Virus record (IMG/VR): IMGVR_UViG_3300042868_008818
Location: 1 to 64,000 of that record
Source: a virus
Direction: 5' to 3' (one strand)
Length of the DNA stretch: 64,000 nucleotides
Shown: positions 1 through 56,057 of the stretch, piece by piece
Layout: the number at the start of each line of letters is the position of its first letter
Numbering within the stretch: position 1 is the first letter of the stretch
Position numbers and translations under genes: made by a program
The notes under the pieces: generated by a model
The model's input: the letters and a program-made list of their open reading frames with translations, nothing else
The model's database searches: none
Told to the model about the DNA's origin: nothing

Positions 1-1817
1 AGGTCTCTTTCACCTGATTCAATTTTATTAATAACCTCATCTCTACGATAAGCGGTATTATCTACAATAAACTCAAGCATTTCTTCATCAGTAATATCTT
101 CAGGTTTAACTGGTTCAGGAATACAATTATGCTCTCTATCAAATAAATCAACATCATCAAAATAAAAACCTGTTTCACCAACTATTTGTTCAAACTTTGG
201 GATCATGGTATCTTCATACCATTCCTCTATTATGCTCGTCACAAAGTTTTTTCTTGCGTTAAAAATTCTCATTATCTTTTCTACTAATGTTTTTGTTATC
301 AGTAATGAACCACTATAAAATTTACCGTCTTCGTAATAGTATATTGCGGTAATAACTTCTTTACCGTTAACACACCAATCCTCACGAAGATTACCATAGT
401 TACGAGATTTTTTACCTATTTCTCTATTACCACCCTCAATATAATCATCAAGAAATAATGTGATAACTTTTCTAAGACTATCTGTAGATTTAAGGTATTT
501 TTGTCTTTTGTCTTCTTCCCTCAATACTTTTATTATGTTATTTTTATATTCATTGGATTCCCACATTTCTCGTTTATTAATATTCTCCTGTTCTTTAATA
601 TTAAAAATAAAACGTATCTTCCATTTACCAATTATTCTATCTGCAATACTATACATAAAATCATCATAATCAATCCCTCCCCAAATACCATTAAGCGTCA
701 GATTTACATCAACTTCAAACATAGGAATTCTACTTATACCTTTTTTTCTTTCTATATTTACAATAGTTATTTTATCTATAGTATCAACAACATCACAACC
801 ATCAAACGACAACCAACCAGGGAAAGTATCCGCATCAGGCACTTCACAAATATTTTTAATTTCATCAAGTGTTTGATCAACGATGTTTTGGAATGTCCCA
901 ATCATTGTTTTTTTATTTAACTTATTATCATTTGATTCTCTCATCAAATCTTTTCCTGTTCCTTCATGTTTTAATGTTATTGCATTTACAGGTATGTTTT
1001 CAAATGTCACTATATGTTTTGATCTTGATTCATAGTGTTTATCTTTGTACCACTTAACATCAGGTATTATTTCAGTATCAATTTCCCATACATCGTCATC
1101 GTATGTGGAATCAAAAGACGCTCTTTTATTTGTTGAGTTGGTTGCAAAGATTGCTGGTACACATTTTTCACCGTAACCTGCATATATTTTATAACATTCT
1201 CCGGCTCTTACTTTTAAACCTTCATTTGTTATTTTATCTCTAACCTTTGGATTAGATTTATGTATAACAATTTTGTTTGGTATTATTTCTTTACCCGCAG
1301 GGCTATATTCATCTTCCCTTAATATTCTTCTTATGGATTCCTGTAGTTTTGTTTTTGTTTTTAGTTTTTTAACTATATTATCTATCTGTGGATTTTTATT
1401 ATCTATAATATCATTAACAACATTAAATGCTTCTCTTGCTGCAAGTTTTCCTTTTTCTTTGTCTTCATAATTAAACACAACATTATACACACCTTTTTGT
1501 CCTTTAACTCCTCTTGTTCTTCCCCATCCTGTATCCATTCCAGCAAGTGTTTGTAATTCTAATGCTACGTGTTCTATAATGTGTCCCATCCAAGTTCCTT
1601 CTTTAATTCTTTTAAAAAATCCTCCTGGTTTTCCTTCTGAACATCTATGACTTTGTAATGACGGTAAATGTTCTTTTATTCTTTCGTAAAATCCTTCTAT
1701 TTTATTTGATGGTTTGTTTTCATAAACACCCAAATCTAAAACCATATGTATAAGTTTATCTTTGGACTCGCTCCATTTGTTTTTTCCATCGATAATATTG
1801 ATTGATTTTATTTTCAT
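1..1817 (-). CDS. Polyprotein-like virion cargo candidate with cyanophycin-synthetase N-domain (partial)
   Basis: This gene starts at 1817 and runs off the left window edge after 605 codons with no stop. Residues about 38-135 match the N-terminal domain of cyanophycin synthetase CphA: GFYERIKEHLPSL, HRCSEGKPGGF, then GTWMGHIIEHVALELQTLAG, GWGRTRG and GVYNVVF. H79-x-x-E82-H83 has the order of inverse-zinc metallopeptidase ligands. The ATP-grasp and ligase parts of CphA are absent. Tag-like helices ending LREDE (about 157-170) and LREED (about 424-436) resemble the N-terminal tags of other proteins here and divide the protein into modules. Module 2 begins IVIHKSNPKVRDKI..EGLK, loosely like ADP-ribosyltransferase-fold proteins, which is weak evidence. 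The start overlaps the upstream stop by one base (TAATG). The domain match is clear; function is unknown. Confidence 0.8.
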   Translation of the reverse strand, partial: MKIKSINIIDGKNKWSESKDKLIHMVLDLGVYENKPSNKIEGFYERIKEHLPSLQSHRCSEGKPGGFFKRIKEGTWMGHIIEHVALELQTLAGMDTGWGRTRGVKGQKGVYNVVFNYEDKEKGKLAAREAFNVVNDIIDNKNPQIDNIVKKLKTKTKLQESIRRILREDEYSPAGKEIIPNKIVIHKSNPKVRDKITNEGLKVRAGECYKIYAGYGEKCVPAIFATNSTNKRASFDSTYDDDVWEIDTEIIPDVKWYKDKHYESRSKHIVTFENIPVNAITLKHEGTGKDLMRESNDNKLNKKTMIGTFQNIVDQTLDEIKNICEVPDADTFPGWLSFDGCDVVDTIDKITIVNIERKKGISRIPMFEVDVNLTLNGIWGGIDYDDFMYSIADRIIGKWKIRFIFNIKEQENINKREMWESNEYKNNIIKVLREEDKRQKYLKSTDSLRKVITLFLDDYIEGGNREIGKKSRNYGNLREDWCVNGKEVITAIYYYEDGKFYSGSLLITKTLVEKIMRIFNARKNFVTSIIEEWYEDTMIPKFEQIVGETGFYFDDVDLFDREHNCIPEPVKPEDITDEEMLEFIVDNTAYRRDEVINKIESGERD

Positions 1818-2914
1818 TATCTTTGTATTCTCCATAAATCTTTTATCATTTTTTCATACATATCGGAAACGTAGTTTACAAAATCAATTTCTTCTTGTTC
1901 TGGTAATTCATCCCAACCAATTCTATATTCTATCCACATAATCCATTCCACCGCCTTTAAAACAACTTCATATTTAAACTGTTCAAAACTTTCCGCCTCA
2001 TAAAATACTTCTTGTGCATATCTTTTAATTAGTTCTTGAACTTTATCCAAATCTATCCTCCTTTGGAAAAATGCCGATTCATTGATAGTTCCCACAGTTA
2101 ATTGTGATCTTAATGTTTGTTCATTTAAATGAAAGTATTTACCTTCTATGTCAATGTCTCTAACTTCAAGACCTGAGTTATCCTCGAACCATCTTTTAAA
2201 GACAGGAATCCATTTATTTCCAAATAATAATGTTAACCCATTGTTTACCCATTTTGTAATCACTAAAGCATATAAATAATCATACCCATCCCACTCACCA
2301 AGATAAGCATAAGCAAAGAGATCGTTTATCTCAAAGTCATAACTCCCATGTTCATTTACATCATTCCTATAAAAATCATGTAATTCTGGACCCCAATTAT
2401 AATCAGGATGATATTCTTCTTTTAAATATTGATATATAAATTCATTAAGATCTTCTCCATCAAAATCTAATATCTTTATTAATCTTTCTACACTACCAAC
2501 CGCCTTTGCCGTTTTTTTAATTCCTATACTACGAATCATTTGGAACAAATTATCTTGTATTGTTTCTTCCCTCAGTATTTTTATTACTGATTCATTTATA
2601 CCATATTTTGTTTTTATTAGGTCGTATCTTTTTTCTATTCTTTCATCATAAAATTTTCTAAGAACATAAAAAACATCATCATACCATTGTAACTCATTTG
2701 GGAGGGTATATACCAATATATTGTGTATTCCGTCTATGGTCATTGATAATATGGTATTTCTAAATGTAGCCAATGGTACAATACTACCACTTTCTTTAAG
2801 ATTTATTGAACACTTATTTGAAATCGTATCTAAACACTCGGTAAATTCCATTTCTAAATACTCAGGACTTACTCTACGTAAAATTAGATTTAATGTTTTA
2901 TCGTTTATGCTCAT
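1817..2914 (-). CDS. Two-module phage protein with internal tag
   Basis: This 365-residue protein is of unknown function. The start at 2914 is preferred to one six codons upstream because a GTATTTAT box lies 4 bases before it. An N-terminal helical module of about 110 residues is followed by a tag-like segment (ESVIKILREE). The next block, SIGIKKTAKAVGSVERLIKIL, is shared in form with the genes at 3753 and 6937. The C-terminal segment with DELP..E and Y..MYE resembles part of the protein at 7434. It is acidic and rich in aromatic residues. It is translationally coupled to the gene at 1-1817. Confidence 0.75.
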   Translation of the reverse strand: MSINDKTLNLILRRVSPEYLEMEFTECLDTISNKCSINLKESGSIVPLATFRNTILSMTIDGIHNILVYTLPNELQWYDDVFYVLRKFYDERIEKRYDLIKTKYGINESVIKILREETIQDNLFQMIRSIGIKKTAKAVGSVERLIKILDFDGEDLNEFIYQYLKEEYHPDYNWGPELHDFYRNDVNEHGSYDFEINDLFAYAYLGEWDGYDYLYALVITKWVNNGLTLLFGNKWIPVFKRWFEDNSGLEVRDIDIEGKYFHLNEQTLRSQLTVGTINESAFFQRRIDLDKVQELIKRYAQEVFYEAESFEQFKYEVVLKAVEWIMWIEYRIGWDELPEQEEIDFVNYVSDMYEKMIKDLWRIQR

Positions 2915-2918
2915 ATTA

Positions 2919-2926
2919 ATAAATAC
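2919..2926 (-). promoter_or_regulatory. RTATTTAT box (putative phage late promoter)
   Basis: GTATTTAT reads toward the start at 2914 with a 4-base gap. Confidence 0.5.
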
Positions 2927-2973
2927 GACCATAAGATAAAACTGACTATTTTATAATTAACATAGTTGTTGTA

Positions 2974-6556: not shown

Positions 6557-6934
6557 TTAATAATCATCTTCTTCTTCGTCCCAAGTGATAGGCTCATCAT
6601 CGTCTTCAATAGTCCCTAAATTACTATCTGATTCAACCCAAACTTCAAAAGGTGTTGATAGTCCGCAATTTTCAACATACTGAATAAAAAATTCTTCCAA
6701 ATATGAATCATCTTTAAAAATTCTAGATATTTGGTCATAGATTTCTTTTTGTACCGATAATGATTTATCTGGTTTAACTATTAAAAATATAACAGTGTTT
6801 CCCGGGGTTGCAAGATATTCCATTCCATAACGTTTGTTTTCCCAAGGTCTTAAATCCAACCTTGAGAGGAATAGTTTTGCGATCTCTTGTTTATCTATAG
6901 TTTCTTTTAATATATGTCTTATAATATCTTTCAT
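6557..6934 (-). CDS. Tagged virion-cargo candidate
   Basis: The 125-residue protein begins MKDIIRHILKETIDKQE, the same tag as its upstream neighbour (MKNLIRNILKEE), with L-K-E as the presumed cleavage site. A small alpha-beta domain (NTVIFLIVKPD) follows, ending in a very acidic tail (EDDDEPITWDEEEDDY). It starts 2 bases after the stop of the gene at 6937. The fold is not recognised. Confidence 0.7.
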   Translation of the reverse strand: MKDIIRHILKETIDKQEIAKLFLSRLDLRPWENKRYGMEYLATPGNTVIFLIVKPDKSLSVQKEIYDQISRIFKDDSYLEEFFIQYVENCGLSTPFEVWVESDSNLGTIEDDDEPITWDEEEDDY

Positions 6935-6936
6935 TT

Positions 6937-7437
6937 TTACATGTTTGTTACATCGGCCGTTAAACCATTAAAAAGGTGATACTTTATCTCTTTTAAATAT
7001 AATCTTAGATACTCATTAACAACGTCCTGTACTTCGTGTTTTATTTCATAATATAGTGGTTCATTTTCAAACAATTCCTCACCTAAAAGATTATAAGTTT
7101 CATTTGTAGTCATTATTAATTCTACCTCACCTTCAATTATTTCAAACATTATATCTAAATAATCATCTCTCATATCATGAACAATTTTGTGTATTTCAAA
7201 AACAAAATCATAACCACCTACTTGTAATGGTAATTCTAAATTACGTGTTGATATACTTTTTCCCACAAATTTTTCTCTAATTAAGGCAACAGGAGTAGTG
7301 TCAAGTATTTTTGCCAAATTATATATTCCACCAACTTTTCTACATACCATAAGAAGACCTTCATTTTCTATCATGTTATGGAACATTTTTTTTGGGTTAT
7401 ATTCTTCTTTTAAAATATTTCTTATTAGATTTTTCAT
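6937..7437 (-). CDS. Tagged virion-cargo candidate, VGG-KIL family
   Basis: The 166-residue protein begins MKNLIRNILKEEYNPKK, the clearest example of the tag. MVCRKVGGIYNLAKIL follows, aligning by eye with SSVVGGFKNVVKIL at 3753 and the matching block at 1817. The rest is acidic alpha-beta. It overlaps the upstream gene by 4 bases (ATGA), so it is translationally coupled. Confidence 0.7.
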   Translation of the reverse strand: MKNLIRNILKEEYNPKKMFHNMIENEGLLMVCRKVGGIYNLAKILDTTPVALIREKFVGKSISTRNLELPLQVGGYDFVFEIHKIVHDMRDDYLDIMFEIIEGEVELIMTTNETYNLLGEELFENEPLYYEIKHEVQDVVNEYLRLYLKEIKYHLFNGLTADVTNM

Positions 7438-8485: not shown

Positions 8486-8824
8486 ATGGATGACGTTACA
8501 AAATATTTCCCGATATTTGATAAATTTTTAAATGAAATGTCGTATGAATCTATATCCAATGTTGAGTTTATTAATGTAGAAAAGTTCTTTGACCGCACTG
8601 TTTTTATTGCCGAAACAAAGTTTGGTGAAGAGTTTGTGGTTAACCAAAGACGTATTAATTGTAAAATGGTTATTGGTGTTAATACATGTAATTACGGTTG
8701 GTCTTATAATAAAAGTTTATTAGAAAAACAATTTGTTTCGATGTTTAAAAGACAATTTAAAAGTATAGACTTTGATTATTGCCAGGTTGTTATTGAATCT
8801 GCTAATATGATTTCAAGTTATTAA
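8486..8824 (+). CDS. Small phage protein
   Basis: This 112-residue plus-strand gene is not recognised. It is mixed alpha-beta with aromatic patches (FVVNQRRINCKMVIGVN) and three cysteines. Its 3-prime end overlaps the convergent gene at 8802 by 23 bases. About 145 bases upstream hold only a weak hairpin near 8410-8436 and AT-rich sequence. Confidence 0.55.
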   Translation: MDDVTKYFPIFDKFLNEMSYESISNVEFINVEKFFDRTVFIAETKFGEEFVVNQRRINCKMVIGVNTCNYGWSYNKSLLEKQFVSMFKRQFKSIDFDYCQVVIESANMISSY

Positions 8825-9275
8825 CAAATCTTTTTATTTCAGGATTTGATATAAATTCCTCAGTGTCTTTTTTTACTTGTTCTTGATCACATTCGTTATT
8901 ATCAAAGAACAAGTTAGGTATCCCATTACTTTCACCTTCTTTAATTGTTAGTTCTATAAAATCAGGAAGATATTTTACTGCTTCTGATTCATATTTTTCT
9001 ATTTTATTGATTACGTCATTATAATCATGTACTCCTTTTGAGTCGATATAATGATCACCTATTTTTATGTAAACGTGTATTAAATGATATTCAATAACTT
9101 CATTTGTGTCCAAGACTAATTCTTCGGCAATAACCAAATAATAAGTTATATCTTTATTGGGTAATAGTTTTTGCAATTTTTCTTTAACATTCATTGCAAA
9201 ATAATGACAAAAACCAAACTGATAATCGTAAAAATTCCGATTTTCTCTTAAAATTTTTACAATTAAGTTTTTCAT
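8802..9275 (-). CDS. Tagged papain-like cysteine peptidase candidate
   Basis: The 157-residue protein begins MKNLIVKILRENRNF (tag). It continues FGFCHYFAMNVKEKL, then YHLIHVYIKIGDHYIDSKGVHDY. Cys at the start of a helix (C23), His on a strand (H67) and Asp after a short hairpin (D79) give the order of a papain/NlpC-like triad. That assignment is pattern-based and unproven. The start overlaps the stop of the SGNH-hydrolase gene by 4 bases, so the two are made together. Confidence 0.6.
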   Translation of the reverse strand: MKNLIVKILRENRNFYDYQFGFCHYFAMNVKEKLQKLLPNKDITYYLVIAEELVLDTNEVIEYHLIHVYIKIGDHYIDSKGVHDYNDVINKIEKYESEAVKYLPDFIELTIKEGESNGIPNLFFDNNECDQEQVKKDTEEFISNPEIKRFVNNLKSY

Positions 9276-10153: not shown

Positions 10154-12685
10154 CTAACCAACAATCTTAGGAGTTTCGGCATCTATAATAAAAGTACCCA
10201 TAGGTGAGCCATCCCATTTTCGTTCTATTACAGATCCAGGTAATTCCATAGTATTAGAACGAAATGGAGTACCATCCAATGGGTTATATTTTATTTTCCC
10301 CCTTTTACCATCTTCACGAACAGTTCTTTCCAATCCTTTTTGTTTTCCCGTTATAATTGTTATACCATTATTTGGATCATAAAATCCCGCTAAATCTATT
10401 TGACTTGGTTTTCCAACTTTTTGTGACATTAATATTTCACACCAATAAGTATTGGTTCCTTTTTTTGGAATCCAATTCCCAGTTCTTTTACCATTAATAA
10501 TTTCAAATTCACCTTCTTCTATTTTTGTTGCGGTTTTTGTTTGTACTGTTTTAACCCCCCCACCAAAAATATTTTTTGTGTCAATAATTATTTGGTCAAT
10601 ACTTAATTGAGTATCTATAGGAGATCCGTTACTTGCGGTGTATTCGACTTTTAATCCATTTTTTTCAAATAATTCATTAACTTTTTGTTCGGAGAAATCA
10701 CCTACCGCTGTATTTTTTTTTATGTTTTTTGTTATATCATCAACCCTATTAATCCAATTTTTTACGTATTTTTCATTTTGATTTAATTTAAGTTTTATAT
10801 TTTCAAATTCTTTGTCTAATTCATTTTTTAATTTTAGTTTTTCTGGGGTATCTTTAACTGCCTTATTATAATCTTGTATTTTTTTAACAAAATCATCATA
10901 TTCATCTTTAGTTAAAATTGTTTTTATAAAAGTTGTCAACTCAAGTGGATTATCTCTATAATTTGTATCTAATTTATTTAAAGGTGACCAATCGCCATTT
11001 TCATCATAAATTCTTTTATAATTGTTTTTAACATCATTAATAAATTCATCTAAAGTCATTTTTTTTGTTCCACCTTCCATTGTGGTGGTGTAAATTTTTT
11101 TGTCCCCAAATTTACTTTTTAATAATTCTAAACCTTTTAAATATTCTTCAATTTCCTGTTTAGAGGCTCCTTCAACATATAATTTTTTATAATCTTTAAG
11201 AAATTTATCCCCCAAATCTCTAATTAAACCTATACCTTTACTATAATATATCCCATTTTTTCCAAAAATATCATGTACTATTTTGTCATTTCCTTTTACC
11301 TCAATCTGAATAACTTCATCGACCAAGTCATCAATAAAATTATCTGTTTTATTCATTTTTTTTAAATAATCCTCCATTGATCCTAAACCCATTAAAGATC
11401 TTTTTTCGTTTAATTTATTTAAAAATTCAACGTCATCTATTAGTCTTTGGGGACTTTCATAGAAATAGATTTTACCATCTAATTCTATTGGTCTTGGGAT
11501 CCATTCCCCATTTTCATTTACTCCTCCTTGTGATCCATATGTTTGTTTACCATTAATTAATTCCCCAAAATCTTCCATCCCACTATCCCTGTAACCAACA
11601 ACACTAGTGTTTGTATTAACCATTACTCTATCTTCTAACATTGCAATACCCATCTTTATATCTTGCGAATTAGTTGAGAATTTTGTTTCTAAGGTTTGTT
11701 GGTTATTTTGTAAAATTTTAAGTATCTCTTTTTGAAATTCTATGTCATTATCTGAATGTTGTATTATGATCCATAAATTTTCTAAATCCTCAAATGTATT
11801 TAGATTTTTTATAAAGTTTTCTTTGTCATTCCCCATTAATTTTTTTAATTCTGTTTGATTGGCAATATCTGTGGTAATATCTAAGTATTCTCCCTGTCTT
11901 ATTGATTGGTCACTATTGGCAAGTACTTTTAGTTTATCGGATATGTCTTTTATTGTTAACACACCTACATTTGTGTCCGCAATTGTTAATGCAGTCTTTA
12001 AGTCATTCATATTAGTTTTTACATCACCACTAATTTGTTTTTCATTACCTCTAAACTCATCAATTTGATTTTTAATGTCTAATAAATATTTACCCATAGG
12101 GTTGTCTGTAGGAATTTCATCTATTAAAGATAAAATTTTACCTTCAAGTTCGTTAATTAACTCTTCAGGTAAATCAGAATTTTTTATTCCTCCTTTATTA
12201 TAAACATATTTTAAGGAATCCAAAAAAGTAGAATTATTAGCATTAATTTGTTGATCCATTATTTTTTTAAACGCATCATTTAATGTAATAACAGAGTTTA
12301 AACCTGCGGTTGCTATATCATTTCTTGTTACTCTTGTTATTACATTATCAAAAAATCTAAAAACATCATTTTCAGGTAAATTGTTAATTATTTTTGTTAA
12401 ATTTGTTCTAATTAAATCTGTCATTTTTCCTTCATCAACCAAATTACCATATTCGTCACCATATTTTTGGTTAAACTCTTCAATAATATTTTTAAGGTAT
12501 CCTTTTTCAATATCTGTAAGATTTTGTGTGGTTTTTTTCACTAAGGATTTAATTATTTGCATCGCATCGCCGTAACCAGTATTCTCATTTAATAAAAATT
12601 TATTATATAAAAAAGATTCATTAATAAAATTTTTCAATCCCATTAACTCATGTATCCTACTTATTTCCGTTAAAAGTTTACTCAT
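10154..12685 (-). CDS. Large tagged virion protein with PD-(D/E)XK-like C-terminus
   Basis: This 843-residue protein begins MSKLLTEISRIHELMGL and FINES. Long helical, charged regions follow. The C-terminal 185 residues look like a restriction-endonuclease fold: GDFSEQKVNELFEKNG (helix with E666), GSPIDTQLSIDQIIID (candidate D690 or D697), then VKTVQTKT (QxK, about 715-717). Such a domain could nick or degrade DNA after injection or protect the phage, but it could be inactive. It is last in an operon with the genes at 12678 and 12869. Length and composition suit an internal virion protein. Confidence 0.6.
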   Translation of the reverse strand: MSKLLTEISRIHELMGLKNFINESFLYNKFLLNENTGYGDAMQIIKSLVKKTTQNLTDIEKGYLKNIIEEFNQKYGDEYGNLVDEGKMTDLIRTNLTKIINNLPENDVFRFFDNVITRVTRNDIATAGLNSVITLNDAFKKIMDQQINANNSTFLDSLKYVYNKGGIKNSDLPEELINELEGKILSLIDEIPTDNPMGKYLLDIKNQIDEFRGNEKQISGDVKTNMNDLKTALTIADTNVGVLTIKDISDKLKVLANSDQSIRQGEYLDITTDIANQTELKKLMGNDKENFIKNLNTFEDLENLWIIIQHSDNDIEFQKEILKILQNNQQTLETKFSTNSQDIKMGIAMLEDRVMVNTNTSVVGYRDSGMEDFGELINGKQTYGSQGGVNENGEWIPRPIELDGKIYFYESPQRLIDDVEFLNKLNEKRSLMGLGSMEDYLKKMNKTDNFIDDLVDEVIQIEVKGNDKIVHDIFGKNGIYYSKGIGLIRDLGDKFLKDYKKLYVEGASKQEIEEYLKGLELLKSKFGDKKIYTTTMEGGTKKMTLDEFINDVKNNYKRIYDENGDWSPLNKLDTNYRDNPLELTTFIKTILTKDEYDDFVKKIQDYNKAVKDTPEKLKLKNELDKEFENIKLKLNQNEKYVKNWINRVDDITKNIKKNTAVGDFSEQKVNELFEKNGLKVEYTASNGSPIDTQLSIDQIIIDTKNIFGGGVKTVQTKTATKIEEGEFEIINGKRTGNWIPKKGTNTYWCEILMSQKVGKPSQIDLAGFYDPNNGITIITGKQKGLERTVREDGKRGKIKYNPLDGTPFRSNTMELPGSVIERKWDGSPMGTFIIDAETPKIVG

Positions 12686-12872
12686 AACTTTCCCAAAATT
12701 TTAATAATTCTTTGTCTTTATATCTTTTTACTTTTTGATCCCAACCACATATATAACAGATAAAAGGATGATCATCATTTTTTTTCATTTTCCATGAATG
12801 ATCACACTTTTTACAAACTATGTTATCTCCAAATAATTTATCTGACTGTCTTTCTGTAATTATAATTTTCAT
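12678..12872 (-). CDS. Tagged zinc-ribbon protein
   Basis: This 64-residue protein starts MKIIITERQSDKLFG, the second tag subtype, also seen at 38575 and 12869. It then carries CKKC and CYIC about 20 residues apart, a treble-clef or ribbon zinc site. It overlaps both neighbours by a few bases. It may be a small injected nucleic-acid-binding protein. Confidence 0.7.
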   Translation of the reverse strand: MKIIITERQSDKLFGDNIVCKKCDHSWKMKKNDDHPFICYICGWDQKVKRYKDKELLKFWESYE

Positions 12873-13369
12873 CTTTTTAAAGTGTTAATTATTTCTTCTT
12901 GGAAGAAGTTTTGAATTTCAGATTCACTGTCTTCACTTTTTAATGTGTCTTGTAATCTTACGTCATCATCATTTAATACACTATAAAAATCATAGTCAGT
13001 TAAATACCCTCTTTTATCTGTAACAATAACGCCAAGAAACTCATCTCCATTGAATGTTATTTCTCCATAATATTCTACCTCATCACCTTTATTAATTTCT
13101 TCGGAGAATTCAAATCTAAATGTCCTACCTTTTAGATTATATTTAAATCTCATTCCCTCTCTTTCATCAACCTTGTGAACATCTTCAATATCAAATATGA
13201 AATCTTCTGGATTACCTCCTCTTTCCGTAAAACTTTTAAAGGCTCTCAATATATCTTTTTCTGATGGTTTTAAATCTTCACCTTTATTCATTTTTGAATA
13301 TAGGTCAAGTACCTGATCAAGATTTTCTTTTAGGTAATTAAACTGTGATTCTGTAAGAATTATTTTCAT
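12869..13369 (-). CDS. Tagged virion-cargo candidate
   Basis: The 166-residue protein begins MKIILTESQFNYLKENLDQ (tag subtype MKII-TE-Q). The remainder is an acidic alpha-beta protein (RFEFSEEINKGDEVEYYGEI) ending in a helical tail. It starts 4 bases after the stop of the gene at 13374 and overlaps the zinc-ribbon gene by 4 bases. Fold not recognised. Confidence 0.65.
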   Translation of the reverse strand: MKIILTESQFNYLKENLDQVLDLYSKMNKGEDLKPSEKDILRAFKSFTERGGNPEDFIFDIEDVHKVDEREGMRFKYNLKGRTFRFEFSEEINKGDEVEYYGEITFNGDEFLGVIVTDKRGYLTDYDFYSVLNDDDVRLQDTLKSEDSESEIQNFFQEEIINTLKR

Positions 13370-38574: not shown

Positions 38575-39825
38575 TTAACGTTTGAATTTAAACTCGGTTT
38601 CTATTTTTCTTTTTCCATGTTTTTTCTCCATCATTTTTTGGTGTAGATCCCAATCAATTATTGATTCATTTGTGGTTTCCTTTTCGTCAGGAATAAGTGA
38701 ATAAATTTTAGAAAGTCTTTTAATTAATTTTGTTGCAACATAATTAAATCTTTCACACTCGTCAACAAAGAACTGTTCTTCTTTATTTCGGTATCTAGCA
38801 ATGTGGTTTAAAAACTTATTTCTAACTTTCTCCAATCCTTCACTATTATTATCTTTAACCATATGCCCCATACCCATCATTCTCATAAATGCCGCGGCTC
38901 TATCATTCATATCCTCTGTCATTCTATCAAAAATATCTTTTTTAGCACTTATTAGATTAATATAAACCAAATCCATAAGTACATATATTTTTTTATCTTC
39001 AGACATATCTTCATAAGGTACTCCAGCATGTGATAATAAAGAATCAATTCTATCCATTTGTTCGTGTAGTTTTTTAACTAAATTAGTATAACTAAAATCT
39101 CTAATTTCTTTTAGTTCTTTAACTACTTTATCGTTTTCAAAAAATTCTCTAAACTTTTCTTTTGTAATACCGGTTAATTTCATTCTTGTTGCAATTTCAG
39201 TTGGTCTAACAAGGTTCTCAACGTGTTGAATAAAATAACTGTGTCTCATAAATTCATTAATCACTGGAATTCCAAAGTTTAATCCTGAACTAGTGTATGC
39301 TTGGTAATCAGCATCTTTACCTATCAAATCCGTTTCTTTTTTTTGTTTATCAAACTTATGTTTAATTTCGTGAGCAATTACAGATATAAATTCAACCTTA
39401 TCTTTACTAAAATAGTTATAAATGTCTTCAGAATCCCAATTATCCTCATTTGATCCAAAATTTAAAGATAATTCAATACTATTATCTAATTTATGTACCT
39501 TCATTAATATTTTTTTATCAAAATTAAATTGGCTTGCAACTCCAGCAGACATCATAACAAGAGGTCCATCATAATCATCCATTTCGTTAATTTCAACTCG
39601 TAATTCTAACTCGTGTATTTTATAATCAGATATTGTTAAATCTAAATTGTTTTCAGTAAATGTTTGTGTGGTATTGTAATCGTCCATACCTTTTAATAGA
39701 TTCAAAATGATTTCATATAATTTTTCTGCCGATTCAATAATACCTTCTGGAACACCAACTGCCTCACTTAATAGATTTTTTACTATCAAATCCATTTGTC
39801 TTTCTGTAATAATAATTTTTGTCAT
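38575..39825 (-). CDS. Tagged HExxH zinc metallopeptidase candidate
   Basis: The 416-residue protein begins MTKIIITERQMDLIVKNLLS followed by EA, a tag ending L-S-E. Residues 146-160 contain FISVIAHEIKHKFDK, an HExxH zinc-peptidase helix (H152, E153, H156). ENLVRPTEIATRM follows about 55 residues later and could supply a third ligand Glu. The rest is helical. A packaged, injected protease acting on host proteins or the envelope is the main hypothesis. An ATATTTAT box is 4 bases upstream. Confidence 0.75.
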   Translation of the reverse strand: MTKIIITERQMDLIVKNLLSEAVGVPEGIIESAEKLYEIILNLLKGMDDYNTTQTFTENNLDLTISDYKIHELELRVEINEMDDYDGPLVMMSAGVASQFNFDKKILMKVHKLDNSIELSLNFGSNEDNWDSEDIYNYFSKDKVEFISVIAHEIKHKFDKQKKETDLIGKDADYQAYTSSGLNFGIPVINEFMRHSYFIQHVENLVRPTEIATRMKLTGITKEKFREFFENDKVVKELKEIRDFSYTNLVKKLHEQMDRIDSLLSHAGVPYEDMSEDKKIYVLMDLVYINLISAKKDIFDRMTEDMNDRAAAFMRMMGMGHMVKDNNSEGLEKVRNKFLNHIARYRNKEEQFFVDECERFNYVATKLIKRLSKIYSLIPDEKETTNESIIDWDLHQKMMEKKHGKRKIETEFKFKR

Positions 39826-55211: not shown

Positions 55212-56057
55212 TTAATAGTTCATTATTAATATCTCTTCTCCCATATTTTGTTTTTTACCTTTTTTTGCTGCCGCGGCCTTTGCAAACTCCTTTGATTCCC
55301 ATCTGTATTCATTTTTAGGGAACCATTCGGATAATAAAGGGAAATCATAATACGATAAAGAAAACTTACCTTCAATGTTTTTCAACGTGTTTGCCAATCT
55401 TTCATGGTCTTGTCTATCAAAATCATGGTTAGAATAATAGTTTTCTGTTTTCCAATATGGTGGATCCAAATAAATGTATGTGGATGGTGAGTCATATTTT
55501 TCAATTACATCCGCAAAGTCCATATTTTCCACTTCTGTGATCTTAATAAAATGATCAATCCAATCAGGCTTTGATAGTTTATCTCTAAACGTCAAATACT
55601 TTGACTTGTACTTACCTTTAAGGTCAATAAAAGAACTTGTTTCAGGTTTTGATCCACTAAATACTTGAGTTAAAACGTAAACATATTTTGCCGCAACTTC
55701 ATAATCGCCAGGTTTTACGCTGAAACCTTCATTAAATATTTCAGCTTGGAACCTGATAAATTGTTCTTTATATAATGGTGGAGTTGTCACCTCACCAAAT
55801 TTTTGACAATCAATTGAGTTGATTGCCTTCAATAACTCCGTTGGGTTTTGGATACACTTAAATAAGTTGTAGTTTAATGGGTTAAAGTCGTTGTAAACAA
55901 CTTTCTTTAGGTTGGGGAACTCTTTTAAGTCCATATTATAAAAACACCAAAACATCCCTCCAAACGTCTCAACATACGTTTCCATATTCTTATCATAGAA
56001 AGGGACGATCCACTTTCCTATTTTACTTTTTCCTCCGATATAACTTAACATATTCAA
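55212..56057 (-). CDS. D12-class (Dam-like) adenine methyltransferase
   Basis: The 281-residue protein has MLSYIGGKSKIGKWIVPFYD (SAM-binding GGKxK), YVETFGGMFWCFYNMDL, VVYNDFNPLNYNLF and catalytic YIYLDPPYWKTENYY (DPPY). It methylates adenine N6, probably at a short site. It is a second methyltransferase beside the class-beta one at 44490; no nuclease is adjacent. An alternative start is M3. Confidence 0.92.
   Translation of the reverse strand: MNMLSYIGGKSKIGKWIVPFYDKNMETYVETFGGMFWCFYNMDLKEFPNLKKVVYNDFNPLNYNLFKCIQNPTELLKAINSIDCQKFGEVTTPPLYKEQFIRFQAEIFNEGFSVKPGDYEVAAKYVYVLTQVFSGSKPETSSFIDLKGKYKSKYLTFRDKLSKPDWIDHFIKITEVENMDFADVIEKYDSPSTYIYLDPPYWKTENYYSNHDFDRQDHERLANTLKNIEGKFSLSYYDFPLLSEWFPKNEYRWESKEFAKAAAAKKGKKQNMGEEILIMNY

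Follow-up and report, generated by a model that had tools for sequence, protein, structure and literature searches.

A free cyanophycin synthetase N-domain with a complete putative peptidase site in tagged proteins of large phages

The N domain of the cyanophycin synthetase SuCphA1 works as an endo-cyanophycinase through a zinc site of the C-H-H type, with the motif Cx19HxxEH and E82 as general base (PMC9262961), so that the cutting of cyanophycin which an earlier note on the present DNA had ascribed to some CphA N-domains is documented for this enzyme, in which it is slow. A second body of knowledge comes from phage T4, whose internal proteins and Alt, an ADP-ribosyltransferase packed in the head (PMC9958956; PMC9026906), are directed to the capsid by short propeptides, which gp21 removes by cutting after L/I-x-E (PMC9026906; PMC5694885); a CTS of 10 residues is enough, and Alt is processed at either end (PMC9026906). 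The CphA1 N-domain and the packaging principle are known already, and the free, tagged form of the domain in phages carries an automatic label only ("Cyanophycin synthase-like N-terminal domain-containing protein", UniProt A0A6J5PU94). No study of an isolated phage N-domain or of phage-encoded cyanophycin genes was found in the literature searched, mostly by title and abstract. Here we describe such a domain in a window of 64,000 bases, the first part of a fragmentary virus record of 76,219 bases, together with its relatives in other large phages.

A free N-domain with a complete active site

The first open reading frame of the window (3-1835, minus strand) has 611 codons and runs open into the left end of the contig. 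We take the ATG at 1817 as the likely start, since this codon overlaps with the stop codon that ends the upstream gene (TAATG, minus strand) and the two closest homologs start in alignment with it. Read from there, the polyprotein frame (3..1817, minus strand, left end open) comprises an N-domain, a tag, a module with an ADP-ribosyltransferase (ART)-like fold and further modules. The N-domain (about 154 residues, 1356..1817, minus strand) matches the Pfam profile PF18921 at 1404-1745 (E 1.7e-44; 150.9 bits, with a curated cut-off of 27), and phmmer pairs it with SuCphA1 (7lg5, E 2e-37) and TeCphA1 (7wac, E 2e-33). Structure prediction, a check proposed in the earlier note, agreed: the best PDB matches of the AlphaFold model (pLDDT 91) are all cyanophycin synthetases, and it superposes on SuCphA1 E82Q (7txv) with a TM-score of 0.85 and an rmsd of 1.2 A, a fold match not independent of homology, as the alignment behind the model included CphA1 sequences. 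The kinship first noticed over residues of about 38-135 is thus confirmed, and its extent has to be corrected to about 1-150. The remark that the ATP-grasp and ligase domains are missing also holds, given that the NCBIfam CphA model TIGR02068 is matched over positions 1-153 of 862 only (180 bits, with a cut-off of 850) and that no ATP-grasp or Mur-ligase domain, as a CphA1 synthetase would have, was found downstream of the N-domain in the frame.

With the ATG at 1817 as residue 1, H57, C59, H79, E82 and H83 coincide with the SuCphA1 numbering. The zinc and general-base motif H79-x-x-E82-H83 (1569..1583, minus strand), recognized as intact before, forms part of a complete Cx19HxxEH whose cysteine had been overlooked; the codon of this C59, the putative third zinc ligand by alignment to SuCphA1, lies at 1641..1643 (minus strand). 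The second-shell residues H57, F67, R70 and E87 and the polymer-binding residues S60, R70 and Y110 of SuCphA1 are likewise the same in the window domain. Ten positions (H57, C59, S60, R70, H79, E82, H83, E87, R100 and T101) are invariant in 11/11 distinct phage copies and in 80/80 Bacteroidota-type CphA1s, as is the tyrosine corresponding to Y110, so that all three reported cyanophycin contacts are kept in the phage domains; F67 is present in 11/11 phage copies and 79/80 CphA1s. At position 90, SuCphA1 has E and the phages have T, as do 75 of the 80 Bacteroidota CphA1s; this T is therefore inherited and no novelty of the phages, and we rejected the reading that it marks a new substrate. Changes fixed in the phages occur at positions 9, 12, 19, 20, 24, 30 and 143, clustering in the segment 9-30, where P12K, Y14K/R, H20D and V24H are phage-specific and suggest that specificity may have moved. 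The polymer contacts S603 and E607 of the SuCphA1 M domain are absent from the phage protein, which, if active, acts without them. From its residues the phage domain is plausibly an active peptidase, and we consider it probable that it is an active zinc peptidase.

Scans of IMG/VR detected the free N-domain in about 20 contigs, from 4-kb fragments up to 436 kb, and none was present in 50,697 records of cultured phages. In a tree with the 80 most similar CphA1s as cellular sample, the 11 distinct phage domains form one clade (support 100/100) on a long stem, apart from all 80. Pairwise dN/dS among the phage domains is 0.06-0.29, denoting purifying selection; the single clade, the conserved site and these ratios led us to reject a decayed or remnant CphA1 gene. 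Among 84,980 species genomes, the nearest cellular relatives proved to be CphA1s with titles that nearly all name Bacteroidota, and 76 of the best 80 cellular loci have open frames of more than 800 codons (three of the four shorter ones lie at locus ends). The copies found on plasmids belong to CphA1s or to a Mur-ligase-family protein; on a Legionella adelaidensis plasmid (L164, 301-1020), a CphA N-domain stands on a shorter "Mur ligase family" protein of unusual CphA-like architecture. PADLOC returned no match, by which we rejected membership of a known defence or counter-defence family.

Tags on many proteins and putative packaging in the head

Every near-complete copy of the N-domain bears on one flank a short tag with a Phi-x-E site, mostly L/I-x-E, whose position (N-terminal, C-terminal or internal) varies by group. 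In the first architecture (the window, L002 and L004) the N-domain is followed by ESIRRILRE/NE and a variable module. The window tag, ESIRRILRE (1314..1340, minus strand), is internal, between modules, with a putative prohead-protease site after its final E, and the contigs L002 and L004 have tags of this type at the same place behind the N-domain. In the second (L005, L006-L008), a linker containing L-x-E sites comes after the N-domain and MSYQEFVEAHKKF stands at the C-terminal end, and in the third (L015-L024, L157 and L158, with L016 cut at its start) the N-domain follows an N-terminal tag of the MKYLxxYxLFE type. In this last group, a small, possibly cupin-like protein with a WHRDxEDR motif is encoded directly after the N-domain gene (L016:482-751, L017:8465-8731, L021:6600-6854).

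A second internal tag, IIKVLRE, lies at 516..536 (minus strand) of the window, and with at least two internal L-R-E tags between its modules the frame deserves the name of polyprotein that it had been given. The upstream gene (1817..2932, minus strand) is built in a similar, polyprotein-like style, with an internal tag VIKILRE at about 2567-2587, and three neighbouring genes on the same strand begin with MKDIIRHILKE (6557..6934), MKNLIRNILKE (6937..7437) and MKNLIVKILRE (8802..9275). A third tag-like N-terminus, MKIIxTExQ, is found on several window genes (12678-12872, 12869-13369, 38575-39825). Elsewhere, L002:2143-5316 (+), lying two genes ahead of the N-domain gene, encodes a tagged polyprotein of 1057 residues in which modules of several types are combined, with NES/LNE at internal junctions. 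Tagged HExxH proteins are encoded at L002:5363-5959 (+), directly upstream of the N-domain gene, and at L041:16725-17765 (+), beside a prohead protease; with the motifs FHETAHQ and FHELAHQ, they may represent a second type of metallopeptidase cargo.

As with the internal proteins of T4, the L/I-x-E tag is common to unrelated phage proteins; the 11-residue N-domain tag of L020, MKYLKSYKLFE, recurs without change on the unrelated gene that comes next. Counted on mechanically called open reading frames, with patterns picked after the sequences had been viewed, N-terminal tags ending in [ILV]-x-E occur on 19/92 genes of G003, the remaining parts of which fall into 18 unrelated families, and on 16/114 genes of G001 (15 unrelated mature parts); an IRRILRE-like motif stands within the first 32 residues of 15/92 G003 genes, compared with 0.2 in shuffles, and never in residues 33-64; and in G008, a contig of 436 kb, a strict MKxLxxFE pattern marks 36/453 genes from 33 unrelated families, compared with 0.8 in shuffles; in this contig, the N-domain gene and the gene after it agree in 11 tag residues. 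A loose pattern proved too weak in G008 (91 against 35 in shuffles) and was replaced by the strict one. Support is weaker in G004, where tag-like ends number 16 at the N terminus and 5 at the C terminus, compared with 1.9 and 0.7 after shuffling. The tag sequences differ among the three phage groups.

The second module of the window polyprotein (894..1310, minus strand) is predicted to have an ADP-ribosyltransferase/KptA-like fold, its best PDB matches being KptA/Tpt1 (E 6e-4, TM-score 0.50, from a moderate model of pLDDT 78). It recurs in 26 other large-phage loci (L167-L192), directly behind an N-terminal tag in some and behind internal L/I-x-E sites in others, and would by this arrangement be a cargo module in its own right. 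The N-domain is absent from 11 further large-phage records with the module, several of them perhaps incomplete, as expected of an accessory cargo.

A gp21-type prohead protease (PF03420) was detected over the cut-off in 4/12 records (G003-G006, that of G003 at 55235-55939) and weakly in G008; there was no match in the 76-kb fragment to which the window belongs, nor in six other records. Tagged genes of G003 are neighbours of the protease gene and of one that is acidic and scaffold-like, and LINE|A stands in the capsid protein of G003 where processing is expected; the N-domain gene of L008 is surrounded by portal, adaptor, head-closure and baseplate genes. By analogy with T4, we think it likely that the N-domain is head cargo.

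A proposed role against host cyanophycin, and its rivals

The kinship of the phage core genes points to Bacteroidota as hosts. The phage thymidylate synthase matches that of Flavobacterium phage immuto at 51% over its full length, the terminase is akin to those of PAU and Tenacibaculum phage PTm1, among others, and the portal to those of huge phages, PAU and Prevotella Lak phages. In Bacteroidota loci, CphA1 stands beside a divergent CphB (TIGR02069 over the cut-off) and a beta-aspartyl peptidase. In the 12 phage records tested, neither the CphB cyanophycinase nor the Mur-ligase middle domain (PF08245) was found, and a phage cyanophycin operon was accordingly rejected.

We propose that these phages captured an intact CphA1 N-domain, which would work as a small endopeptidase, its zinc bound by C59, H79 and H83 and its general base being E82. 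The short tag would take it into the prohead alongside other tagged cargo, where a T4-gp21-type protease, cutting after L/I-x-E, would free it; the freed domain would then ride in the head and enter the cell with the DNA. Once inside, it would cut the cyanophycin store down to short pieces of (beta-Asp-Arg)n, which the host CphB and beta-aspartyl peptidase could finish to Arg and Asp, giving the phage an early supply of nitrogen and amino acids. To this whole account, of a packaged, protease-released and injected zinc peptidase opening host cyanophycin, we give a probability of roughly 0.4, and cyanophycin as the substrate, taken by itself, has in our view slightly better than even odds; the likelihoods attached to activity, head location, substrate and the whole account are not independent of one another. 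Against the account weigh the role of the tags, which rests on their likeness to T4; the large cargo load implied by up to 20% of genes being tagged; the seven records without a PF03420 match, that of the window included; the lost M-domain contacts and the slow cutting by the SuCphA1 N-domain; the changes in the segment 9-30; the want of a cyanophycinase or ligase partner in the phages; and a host assigned by kinship.

The strongest rival, which we hold to be rather unlikely, retains an active zinc peptidase, in the head or injected, and gives it another substrate: host proteins, wall peptides or a defence protein. The anatomy would be the same, and the phage-fixed changes in 9-30, the loss of the M-domain contacts and the lack of any other cyanophycin gene in the phages all suit it, as does the tagged HExxH protein directly upstream in L002, which indicates that peptidase cargo is not unique. 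However, the polymer-contacting side chains are kept as in Bacteroidota CphA1s, and a new substrate would not need them. Still less probable is an anti-cyanophycin enzyme of the infected cell that is never packaged, the tags serving, for example, in targeting to the membrane or a replication compartment. Tags do sit on many proteins of unknown role and are of unlike sequence in the three phage groups, and packaging is deduced here from genes; yet the tags end in a prohead-protease site, stand between polyprotein modules and, in G003, lie beside protease, scaffold-like and capsid genes.

The adaptor for a host polymer or enzyme that the earlier note had considered, that is, a non-catalytic adaptor or decoy binding cyanophycin or host CphA1, would agree with a free binding domain devoid of ligase parts, but it becomes a slim prospect because C59, H79, E82 and H83 are invariant in 11/11 distinct phage copies under purifying selection. 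Slimmer still are the chances of a head-maturation helper, a further protease, dependent on a metal, that would have phage head proteins as its targets: the head-gene neighbourhood in L008 and the peptidase site speak for it, but its distribution is patchy (it is missing from all 11 further, in part perhaps incomplete, ART-module records), several carriers already have a prohead protease, and its kin is a polymer-specific enzyme.

Should the cyanophycin-opening account hold, the domain would be the first phage enzyme against cyanophycin known to us. More broadly, and more doubtfully, large Bacteroidota phages may inject a virion-borne cyanophycin-cutting enzyme as a source of nitrogen and amino acids from the first minutes, as part of a tag-sorted, protease-released arsenal of proteins, some of them polyproteins. 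The phage domain would also be a natural experiment on the third CphA1 active site, long kept without the synthetase, and the Phi-x-E tags provide a simple sequence rule by which dozens of proteins from uncultured large phages, for the most part of unknown function, become candidates for packaging in the head.

Comparison with known systems

The earlier note had likened the motif order to that of inverse zinc peptidases, a comparison that fits in part. The order HxxEH on the active-site helix is common to it and to the M16 inverzincins; however, the third ligand of M16 is a downstream Glu, Asp or His, whereas that of the phage domain would be the upstream C59, by alignment to SuCphA1 (PMC9262961), and the M16 domain is much larger. 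With the CphB cyanophycinase (peptidase S51) it would share the polymer substrate, but the CphB fold is of the serine type and unrelated. The closest characterized relative is the SuCphA1 N domain (7lg5/7txv; PF18921), of the same fold and 44-47% identical in Foldseek alignments; in SuCphA1 it is joined to the G (ATP-grasp) and M (Mur-ligase) domains, whereas the phage domain is free of both and bears tags. The free N-domain of A0A6J5PU94, from an uncultured Caudovirales phage, is 68% identical in alignment to that of the window, and its 245 residues equal the length of the L008 architecture.

Regarding virion packing, the likeness to T4 is one of genes. As in IPI-III and Alt, a short terminal tag ending in a protease site is carried by many unrelated proteins, here putative cargo; the ADP-ribosyltransferase Alt has a possible counterpart in the ADP-ribosyltransferase-like module, and several N-domain carriers encode a protease of the gp21 family. 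In contrast to T4, the tags of these phages are of other sequence, mark far more genes and stand also between the modules of polyproteins.
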